From Candidatus Zixiibacteriota bacterium (GTDB lineage: Bacteria; Zixibacteria; MSB-5A5; GN15; FEB-12), in assembly GCA_040756055.1 (NCBI GenBank), contig JBFLZR010000004.1, positions 1 through 64,000 on the forward strand: a stretch of DNA of 64,000 nucleotides, written 5' to 3'. Below the pieces are notes generated by a model that ran no database searches, was not told the origin of the DNA, and was given only the letters and a program-made list of their open reading frames with translations. This document shows positions 60,831 through 64,000 of the stretch, piece after piece. Each line of letters opens with the position of its first letter. Position 1 is the stretch's first letter. The position numbers and the translations under genes were made by a program.

Positions 60831-61319
60831 ATGGACGACAAAATTCTCTGGGCCCCCTGGCGGGCCGAATTCATTCTGAGCAAAAAGGAAAAGGGATGCA
60901 TCTTCTGTAAGCGACTGAAGATGAAAGACTCCGTGAAGAACCTTGTCATATATCGCGGAAAAAATAGTTTCGTTATCCTCAACAAGTTTCCATACAACTC
61001 CGGCCATACCCTTATCGTTCCCAACCGACATGTCGGCCAACTTGAGAAACTGACCGAGCAGGAGTCAATCGAGTTCTTTGAGCTGACCCGCAAGACAGTC
61101 GCGGTTATCAAGAAAGTCCTCAATCCCGGTTCGCTCAATATCGGCATGAATCTTGGAAAAATTTCCGGCGCCGGTATTCCCGGTCACGTTCACATGCACG
61201 TTGTGCCACGCTGGCACGGCGACACCAACTTCATGCCGGTTATCGGCAAAACCAATGTCGTTTCGGTTCCTCTCGAACCGATTTATGAAGCTTTGAAGAA
61301 GGAATTCGCCGCCTTATGA
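60831..61319 (+). CDS. HIT-family hydrolase/transferase
   Basis: A 162-residue HIT protein with the histidine triad HVHMHVVPRW (about residues 122-131) and an N-terminal CIFCK zinc-type pair, PYNSGHTLIVPNRHVGQL. It resembles the Ap4A-phosphorylase/FHIT-like subgroup that cleaves dinucleoside polyphosphates or nucleotide adducts. Its stop codon overlaps the next gene's ATG (ATGA), so the aconitase-like protein is translationally coupled to it. Confidence 0.92.
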   Translation: MDDKILWAPWRAEFILSKKEKGCIFCKRLKMKDSVKNLVIYRGKNSFVILNKFPYNSGHTLIVPNRHVGQLEKLTEQESIEFFELTRKTVAVIKKVLNPGSLNIGMNLGKISGAGIPGHVHMHVVPRWHGDTNFMPVIGKTNVVSVPLEPIYEALKKEFAAL

Positions 61320-62941
61320 GCGCCCGCAAGAGAATACCCACTAAAAGCGAACTGGTTCGTCTTCAGAAACTGTACAAAACCGACGAGAAGATCGGTGAAC
61401 GTCTTGGCGGTGTTCCGGCCTACCTGATCGCGTACTGGCGCAGGAAGAAAAACGTCCCGAAGCATTCGCTTCCGAAATTCTCGGAGAAGGAAATTCGTGA
61501 TTTGTGGGAGCGGTTTGGTGATGATGACAAGTGCGGCCTCGAACTGGGTATCTCCAAGGCGGCCTTTTACAACTGGCGACGTCGCTATGGCATCCGCGAG
61601 AAGCCGGCATTCCTCAAGCTGGAACAGCTGGAACTGAATTTCCCCGGCCTCAAGCTTCATCCGACCACGAACTCCCTCTATGGCAAAAAGACCGTGTCGC
61701 AGAAGATTATGGCACGGGCGGCGCAGTTGGAGCGTCTTGAAATCGGTCAAACGATTGAAGTCGAGCCTGACCTTATTGTGTCGCATTCGGACACCGAAAC
61801 GATTATCGAGCATTTCAAAAAACTCGGCAGCGAACTGGTGTGGAACCCGGGGCGGATTGTGGTCTCGCTTGCCGATGGCCTGTCGGCCGAGCGGCCGGAC
61901 CTGCCGGCGGCCCACCAGAAAATTCGCGAGTTTGTCAAAAGACAGGGAATAAAATCATTCTACGATGTCTCCGAAGGGGTCGGGCACCAGGTGGCTCTGG
62001 AGAGAGGCCACATTATCCCGGGTGCCTTTGTCGTCGGCACTGACCCGTACAGCGTGGCATACGGATGTGTCAGCGCCTTTTCATCGGGAGTCACTGTCGA
62101 GCAGGCTGCCGAAGTCTGGGCTACCGGAACAGCCAAATTCCAGATCCCGCCGACTATTCGAATCGACATTAATGGCCGACGAGCTCGCGGTGTCTATGCC
62201 CGCGATATCGCTCTTCTCATTGCCCGCCAGATGGCCGCCGTGGATGTTAAGGGCAAGACAATCGAGTATTACGGTAATGTCGTCTCACGGATGAGCATCA
62301 GCGAACGGTACACCCTAACAAACCTCACGCTCGATGCCGGTGTTCTTACGGCTATCTGTCCGTTCGATTCCACCACGCGACGGTTCCTGACGGGACGAAT
62401 CTCGACCAATTATGCTCCTGTAGTGGCCGACAAAAACGCCGAGTATCACCAGATTTACCAGATGAATATCGACCACCTCACCCCGCAACTTGCCCGCTGT
62501 GGCGAGGCCACCGATATAACACCGGTGGGAGAATCTGAAGGTCTCGCGGTCAATGTCATTATACTCGGCACCGGAAGTAACGGCCGCTTCGATGATATCC
62601 GGGTGGCCGCCGACATTCTCAAAAATAAGCGGGTCAGTTCCGACTGTCGGCTGATCATCTGCCCTGCCTCGCGGTCGGTCTATCTGGAAGCGCTCAAGAA
62701 AGGGCTTATCAGAGTTCTGGTAGAAGCGGGCGCGATTGTCACCTATCCCGGTTACTGGGGCTCACTGGGGCAGGGGCAGCTCATGATAGCTCCGGGCGAC
62801 AGGGTTCTGGCGACATCGGATTGCGGCCTCGCGCAGAGGCTTGGATCCGACAAAGCCGAGATTTTCCTTTGTTCCCCCGGCACCGCCGCCGCTTCGGCTC
62901 TCAACGGCTCGATTACCGATCCGAGCCGATACGCCAAGTAA
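61316..62941 (+). CDS. Cluster-less aconitase/LeuC-fold protein with N-terminal HTH-like region
   Basis: A 541-residue protein. Residues 1-95 are basic and helical with two HTH-like segments (DEKIGERLGGVPAYLIAYWR and CGLELGISKAAFYNWRRRYG). Residues from about 140 follow a LeuC/homoaconitase fold (GHQVALERGHIIPGAFVVGTD, AAEVWATGTAKFQIPPTIRI, LCSPGTAAASALNGSITDP). Every signature is replaced: CGDSHT is GTDPYS (241-246), GSCTNGR is GTGSNGR (418-424), the CxxC is GYWGSLG (479-485) and the RNF arginine region is CGLAQRLG. No Fe-S cluster or dehydration chemistry is expected. A ligand-sensing DNA- or RNA-binding role is inferred. Confidence 0.75.
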   Translation: MSARKRIPTKSELVRLQKLYKTDEKIGERLGGVPAYLIAYWRRKKNVPKHSLPKFSEKEIRDLWERFGDDDKCGLELGISKAAFYNWRRRYGIREKPAFLKLEQLELNFPGLKLHPTTNSLYGKKTVSQKIMARAAQLERLEIGQTIEVEPDLIVSHSDTETIIEHFKKLGSELVWNPGRIVVSLADGLSAERPDLPAAHQKIREFVKRQGIKSFYDVSEGVGHQVALERGHIIPGAFVVGTDPYSVAYGCVSAFSSGVTVEQAAEVWATGTAKFQIPPTIRIDINGRRARGVYARDIALLIARQMAAVDVKGKTIEYYGNVVSRMSISERYTLTNLTLDAGVLTAICPFDSTTRRFLTGRISTNYAPVVADKNAEYHQIYQMNIDHLTPQLARCGEATDITPVGESEGLAVNVIILGTGSNGRFDDIRVAADILKNKRVSSDCRLIICPASRSVYLEALKKGLIRVLVEAGAIVTYPGYWGSLGQGQLMIAPGDRVLATSDCGLAQRLGSDKAEIFLCSPGTAAASALNGSITDPSRYAK

Positions 62942-62961: not shown

Positions 62962-62991
62962 TAAAAAAAGCCGGGTCAAAACAACCCGGCT
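62962..62991 (-). terminator. Intrinsic terminator of the peroxiredoxin gene
   Basis: On the minus strand AGCCGGGT (62991-62984) and ACCCGGCT (62976-62969) form a stem with a 7-nt loop, followed by seven T. It lies between convergent genes and serves mainly the minus strand. Confidence 0.85.
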
Positions 62992-63016: not shown

Positions 63017-63724
63017 CTAACGTTTCGGAGGTTTCCAGACTTCCCAGACCTTCCCGACCAGAGCCGGACCGGGCTTCAATGTCATATCCCCCGGCTTCCA
63101 CTCAGCGGGAGTGGCCTCGGTCCCCTTGGACTTGCGGACGAGCTGGAAGGCTTTGACCTGCCTGATGGTTTCATCGATATTGCGTCCCACCGGAGGCGTC
63201 AGGTGCTCCATGCCCTGAATGACACCATCGGGATCGATAATAAACCGCCCCCTGAAATTGACGCCCGAATCCTCATCGTAGACGCCATACACGCGGCCGA
63301 TGTGCCCGCCGGCATCGGATATCATCGGAAACGGTATCCCGCCGTCAACCATCTTCGACAGTTCGGCCTCATGCCAGACTTTGTGAACGAATTGGGAATC
63401 GACAGAGCACGAAAAGACTTTTACGCCAAGTCCTTCGAGTTCTTTATACGAAGCAGCGACCGCTGCTAATTCTGTCGGTCAGACAAAGGTGAAATCACCG
63501 GGGTAGAAGCACAGCAGAACCCAGCTGCCCAGCGACTCGGACAATTTAACCCTTTTAAAGTCCCCCTTAAAATAGGCCGGCGCCTCGAAATCAGGGGCTT
63601 TCTTACCAACCTGAACGGCCATCTTTTTCTCCTCCTTAATGGTTTCATCTTTCACGGACACCGGTTCGTCCTGCTGACCGAGCACTTTGCCGCTCGGCCT
63701 GCCGCATCCGGATGATTCTGCCAT
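63017..63724 (-). CDS. Selenocysteine peroxiredoxin (AhpC/Prx-like), UGA read as Sec
   Basis: One peroxiredoxin gene interrupted by an in-frame TGA at 63481-63479. The flanks read FYPGDFTFV-[TGA]-PTELAAV, so the stop occupies the peroxidatic Cys position (Sec48 counting from ATG 63622). Downstream homology continues unbroken for 153 codons with no other stop or shift. A SECIS-like hairpin follows. ATG 63622 (AAGGAGGAG upstream) gives the family's normal start; ATG 63724 (AAGGAGG) would add 34 residues with two cysteine-free charged stretches. The resolving Cys of AhpC (VCP) is Thr171 (ATP), leaving Cys38 and Cys72. It should reduce peroxides in the cytosol with an external thiol as resolver. 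Adjacent to tpx. Confidence 0.88.
63453..63466 (-). promoter_or_regulatory. Putative bacterial SECIS element
   Basis: On the minus strand GCAGC-GGTC-GCTGC: a perfect 5-bp stem with a GGUC apical loop, starting 12 nt after the UGA (loop at +17). The E. coli fdhF element likewise shows GGUC in the loop at about +18. This is the SelB-binding feature expected for UGA decoding. Confidence 0.75.
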
Positions 63725-63914
63725 ATTGCCTCCTTGGAAATCCACTGTACGCTAAATTGTCAACTTGAACACCCTAAAATACACATTTAGCGCTCCACCG
63801 CAAGCTTCCTCGGAGTTTTTTTGCTCACAAAGCTTATCGTGGTGAACTTTCGTCTATCATTCGTGTTTAGAACTTTGCAAAACGACGGTAATACAAAACA
63901 AGAAAGGATGAATC
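63725..63914. other. Divergent control region between peroxiredoxin and thiol peroxidase genes
   Basis: About 190 nt of AT-rich DNA separates two divergent peroxidase genes. A TTGACA occurs on the minus strand around 63757-63762 without a convincing -10 box. No repressor site is recognisable by eye. Confidence 0.4.
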
Positions 63915-64000
63915 GTGGAAAGAAATAACGTAATCAAATCGCAGGGCAAGCCCCTCACCCTGGTCGGCAAGGAACTCAAAGTCGGCGATAAGGCCCCGGA
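63915..64000 (+). CDS. tpx: Thiol peroxidase, N-terminal part only
   Basis: GTG at 63915 with AGAAAGGA upstream opens a frame reading IKSQGKPLTLVGKELKVGDKAPD, the standard N-terminus of Tpx-type atypical 2-Cys peroxiredoxins. The active-site region lies beyond the window. Together with the divergent Sec-peroxiredoxin it forms a peroxide-defence locus. Confidence 0.85.
   Translation, partial: MERNNVIKSQGKPLTLVGKELKVGDKAP

Follow-up and report, generated by a model that had tools for sequence, protein, structure and literature searches.

A new member of the PrxU selenoprotein family with a conserved Cys-bearing extension and a predicted internal start

The window analysed here covers 64,000 nucleotides of Candidatus Zixiibacteriota bacterium contig JBFLZR010000004.1 (positions 1 to 64,000). 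Close to its end, the minus strand carries a peroxiredoxin frame that runs from an ATG at 63724-63722 to a TAA at 63019-63017 and is broken by one TGA only (63481-63479). With the TGA translated as selenocysteine (Sec), this long frame (63017..63724, assigned to prxU by its NF040737 match) encodes a protein of 235 aa, in which residue 82 is Sec and the C-terminus reads WEVWKPPKR. A Shine-Dalgarno (SD) sequence, AAGGAG (63730..63735, minus strand), stands 5 nt ahead of the long ATG, and an SD-like motif precedes the long start in 102 of 113 relatives. Without read-through, the gene appears in the open reading frame list as two pieces (63745-63479 and 63352-63017), as the first-pass annotation of this DNA had expected. 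That annotation also read the FTFV-U-PTE motif correctly, with the TGA at the peroxidatic position; it is the minus strand that carries the motif, not the plus strand. A terminator-like hairpin (GCCGGGT/ACCCGGC, then seven U; 62963..62990, minus strand) lies downstream of the gene.

The read-through product scores 384 bits on the NCBIfam model NF040737 (peroxi_PrxU), whose cut-off is 270, and the match (residues 5-232 of the query on positions 2-231 of 233) spans the whole model, N-terminal extension included. The Pfam domain AhpC-TSA (125.8 bits) and the 1-Cys Prx C-terminal domain were also identified in the 235-residue product. An AlphaFold2 model built from an input alignment of 41 relatives has a mean pLDDT of 84.8, and its best PDB matches are of the Prx1 type, with TM-scores of up to 0.92 on the target. 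The protein thereby has the Prx1-type fold of a typical 2-Cys peroxiredoxin, with Thr at the place of the resolving Cys of the C-terminal arm. It shares this fold and a PxxxTxxC-type active site with AhpC and the typical 2-Cys peroxiredoxins (TIGR03137, Prx1-Prx4), from which it differs by Sec for the peroxidatic Cys, Thr for the resolving Cys and a Cys-bearing extension; against the AhpC model TIGR03137 it reaches 192 bits, under the cut-off of 272. In its own phylum, 52 of 132 genomes hold a gene above the PrxU cut-off, with one in-frame TGA in each. The gene is a new member of the known selenoprotein family PrxU, and its product is a putative thioredoxin-dependent peroxidase.

The genome, searched for Sec genes at 97.7% completeness, contains the complete decoding set of tRNA-Sec, SelA, SelB and SelD. 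The tRNA-Sec (selC) was found with 69.4 bits, selB lies directly after selA, and selD (G000:C2:620963-621886) is itself a selenoprotein gene with the active site CAGU (VSCAGUASK), so all four genes named by the first-pass annotation as a check on its selenoprotein reading are present. A scan of public genomes gave 80 close relatives, and the addition of loci from the own phylum raised the set to 127 distinct genes. The TGA is kept in 75/75 of the close relatives that could be read by one motif and also in the remaining five. Over the whole set, which covers well over ten phyla, the peroxidatic codon (63479..63481, minus strand) is TGA in 126 loci and TGC in one; three further Cys loci were found, all in the other phylum that holds the TGC exception. 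Homologous sequence past the TGA is kept in the relatives, which argues against a stable truncated product. A general reassignment of UGA was considered as well and rejected on a partial survey, as the UGA codons of prxU and selD occupy specific Sec positions and the genome has all Sec genes. Four Cys relatives from another phylum (L136, identical to L160, and L157, L158 and L159) lack both the extension and the C-terminal resolving Cys; each carries a single peroxidatic Cys and a Cys ten residues upstream of it.

The hairpin A-GCAGC-G-GU-C-GCUGC-U (63452..63467, minus strand) starts 12 nt past the TGA, exactly as first described. Covariation was analysed in 125 distinct sequences for all pairs among columns 3-41, with the U of UGA as 0. 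The top four mutual information values were obtained for the pairs 14-29 (1.36), 20-23 (0.98), 17-26 (0.95) and 15-28 (0.64). The pair 14-29 occurs as GC, UA, AU and CG, representing all four Watson-Crick types, while the pair 20-23, which flanks an invariant GU, is G-C 73 times and A-U 51 times; the inner variable pairs are able to form in 124 of the 125 loci. The covarying positions are mostly synonymous sites, and the protein cannot explain the covariation of 20-23 because these bases stand third in Ala and Val codons. The stem-loop follows right after the UGA, with G in the first loop positions and a conserved structure, as in bacterial SECIS elements. RNAfold on the hairpin alone, with the UGA bases free to pair, gave an unremarkable z of -0.62, which is weak evidence, and none of the Rfam models matched the SECIS region. 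The hairpin is a bacterial SECIS, established by covariation rather than by thermodynamics.

SelB touches the apical GU of bacterial SECIS elements, and binding of the prxU hairpin by the SelB encoded in this genome is predicted. Elements of the fdhF kind, as generally known, likewise consist of a stem with a small GU-bearing apical loop, 17 nt past the UGA. The prxU hairpin differs in that it sits in conserved Ala-Val-Ala codons and has a loop of the form R-GU-Y, in which R and Y covary. SelB, charged tRNA-Sec and this hairpin would together decode UGA codon 82 as Sec. A PrxU match over the whole length, together with a TGA and a hairpin that are maintained across about 125 loci, puts the combination of UGA and hairpin as a selenoprotein gene far beyond chance. 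An AhpC gene interrupted by a nonsense mutation, or a sequencing or assembly error, would account for the two fragments in the open reading frame list, but the chance of this is negligible given the identical TGA across nearly the whole set, the covarying hairpin downstream of it and the full Sec machinery, and the conservation of TGA and SECIS rules it out. Taken as a whole, the locus is with high confidence best explained as an intact prxU whose UGA codon 82 is read as Sec.

The Thr codon at the 2-Cys resolving position (63110..63112, minus strand) encodes residue 205 of the long frame; the Thr171 of the first-pass annotation is the same residue counted from an internal ATG at 63622. The C-terminal resolving Cys is found in only 26 of 127 loci and is thus absent in about 80%, with Thr in 96/127, and its state has changed at least 4 times, most likely 7 times, on the core tree. 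The N-terminal extension comprises 34 codons (63623..63724, minus strand) with a conserved GCxRP(S/T)G head and a variable linker. Both the lost resolving Cys and this extension had been singled out as noteworthy; both are indeed present, but they are typical of the PrxU family rather than peculiar to this gene. The idea that the extension is confined to the source lineage was likewise dropped, as it was found, the prototype included, in every sampled phylum that has a Sec PrxU.

The Cys of a GCxRPTG-like head is found in 122 of 126 Sec loci and corresponds here to Cys7 (63704..63706, minus strand), a candidate resolving residue. Across the 41 sequences of alignment A1, C7 and P10 are invariant and the adjoining linker varies. 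The codons of G6, C7, P10 and G12 are free to vary synonymously, indicating that the extension is translated and selected as protein. A conserved RNA element within it was considered and rejected: the 45-nt z reached only -0.5 when compared with synonymous shuffles, and the column pairs that scored best were adjacent ones, for which amino-acid variation accounts. The Cys head is missing from the Sec loci L132, which has a signal-peptide-like leader, L134 and L135, both core only, and L140, which is core only and has the C-terminal Cys. This distribution means that Sec PrxU proteins lacking the C-terminal Cys almost always possess the N-terminal one. In L132 (G082:C47), the leader VKRILSLIAVIAFIGLGGSLSLAG replaces the Cys head and the internal SD and ATG are kept, so that its two starts could yield an exported and a cytosolic form.

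A second Cys, Cys72 on strand beta3 (63509..63511, minus strand), lies ten residues ahead of the Sec and is found in 122/122 loci with Cys7 and in 1/4 Sec loci without it (Fisher 1e-5, ancestry uncorrected). This association would fit a functional partnership of Cys72 with Cys7 or with Sec82, which we consider improbable because Cys72 is retained in the four extension-less Cys relatives and its position is that of a core strand residue in the Prx fold.

A second in-frame ATG (63620..63622, minus strand) lies between head and core, immediately ahead of the VGxxAPDF core; a short form of 201 aa with Sec48 is predicted to start there. This ATG is preceded in the linker by the internal SD AAGGAGGAG (63629..63637, minus strand). 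Among the relatives, AGGAG stands within 21 nt upstream of the internal ATG in 99 of 120 loci, with 6 or 9 nt as the most frequent distances, against 12 of 558 for other in-frame ATGs (Fisher 3e-83, which ignores shared ancestry). The in-frame ATG and its SD are conserved at synonymous sites. Of the positions profiled, the internal-start region shows the least RNA structure, and its folding is weaker than that of synonymous shuffles (z +0.54, s.e. 0.11). Compared with such shuffles, the internal SD itself reaches a median per-locus p of 0.16; the value is weak because the Lys-Glu dipeptide by itself favours an SD, and the argument therefore draws on codon choice across many loci. The P values are optimistic since the loci share ancestry, yet they span many phyla and the linker is otherwise freely variable. 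In one exception, L138, the linker and the internal start are deleted. In another relative, L137 (G099:C144), a TAG right after the internal ATG splits the extension from the core and Met occupies the resolving position; this gene is possibly decaying or possibly encodes two separate polypeptides.

These patterns suggest that ribosomes probably also enter at a second site inside the frame and thereby produce a short form lacking the extension. Core-only relatives begin at the corresponding ATG, with an AAGGAGG-like SD ahead of it, and the extension may therefore have arisen when the frame grew upstream past a start that already existed and was retained afterwards. The same relatives make it plausible that this ATG is the ancestral start, and L138 does without it, so only the long form might be produced, with the internal AAGGAG and ATG being a relic or a protein-level linker motif. 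We regard such a single start as unlikely. A relic should decay synonymously, whereas of the Lys-Glu pairs at the internal SD 71 of 76 are spelled AAG-GAG, compared with 6 of 43 in the rest of these genes (4e-19, which ignores shared ancestry), and AAG-GAG is retained inside a linker that otherwise varies freely.

The prototype PrxU of Peptoclostridium (formerly Eubacterium) acidaminophilum, to which the protein shows about 59% identity, likewise has Sec at the peroxidatic site, the AhpC/Prx1 fold and the same SECIS position. Its gene also has an extension, with the head GCARP, and an internal SD and ATG; the C-terminal resolving position is Ala there and Thr here. The product predicted from the internal start of P. 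acidaminophilum is exactly 203 aa long with Sec47. The PrxU published by Soehling et al. in 2001 reportedly has 203 aa with Sec47, and this reported size is that of the internal-start product, while the RefSeq entry WP_084481301.1 begins at the long start. Selenocysteine peroxiredoxins are named in several papers (PMC13188914, PMC1794560, PMC1088965, PMC5109826). Searches of the open literature returned nothing on a PrxU extension or on two starts. What is new here is the predicted isoform pair and the conserved N-terminal Cys; the selenoprotein itself belongs to a known family.

In the mechanism that we propose, Sec82 would be the peroxidatic residue that attacks hydroperoxides in a peroxidase of AhpC/Prx1 fold, and the second ribosome entry would supply a short form lacking the extension. 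The GCxRPTG head of the long form would contribute its Cys, which would resolve the oxidised Sec as a stand-in for the missing C-terminal Cys, and thioredoxin would afterwards reduce the selenenylsulfide. A thioredoxin gene is present in the genome; no AhpF was found in it over the cut-off, with a partial match to the reductase part of AhpF as expected of a thioredoxin reductase. A resolving role of the N-terminal Cys followed by reduction by thioredoxin is a serious possibility, though we stop short of calling it probable. It is about equally likely that a single Sec suffices, with an external thiol or thioredoxin reducing the oxidised Sec directly and Cys7 serving for docking, an oligomer contact or metal binding. 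The missing C-terminal Cys, here and in most loci, is consistent with this one-Sec mechanism, as are the short form, which if made would have no Cys7, and the four Cys relatives that lack both the extension and the C-terminal Cys; the near invariance of Cys7 beside a varying linker speaks against it. The first-pass annotation had taken the lost resolving Cys as a sign of a Sec/external-thiol mechanism, which it does favour, but only as one of several options, given that Cys7 in the extension could substitute.

The distribution of the features above leads us to suggest, tentatively, that many phyla produce PrxU both as a long form, in which the N-terminal Cys would resolve the Sec, and as a short one-Sec form from the conserved internal start, and that the published biochemistry would concern the short form only. 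The nearly invariant Cys of the extension offers a possible resolving partner where the textbook Cys is missing, and its use would mean that the resolving role has moved from the C- to the N-terminus. The conserved internal start predicts two proteins per gene throughout the family. If this is true, the PrxU that has been characterised may be missing the part on which its mechanism depends, and annotation pipelines that report a single start hide half of the products.

The neighbourhood of prxU is a weak clue to the reductant. Inspected by eye in 80 loci, its recurrent neighbours include A-type flavoprotein-like (7), Fur/PerR-type regulator-like (6) and rubrerythrin-like (5) genes. In the window, the plus strand at 61316-62941 encodes an aconitase/isopropylmalate dehydratase-like protein of 541 aa, in which roughly 120 additional N-terminal residues come ahead of the family match and which stays under the curated cut-off of every model that it matches. 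On the other side, prxU is adjoined by a divergent thiol peroxidase gene, tpx (63915-64000, continuing to 64433; L012:8916-9434, plus strand), whose product has Ala (SRYAQ) where the closest solved homologue has the resolving Cys (ARWCG). With Ala in Tpx and Thr in PrxU, both adjacent peroxidases are without the usual resolving Cys.
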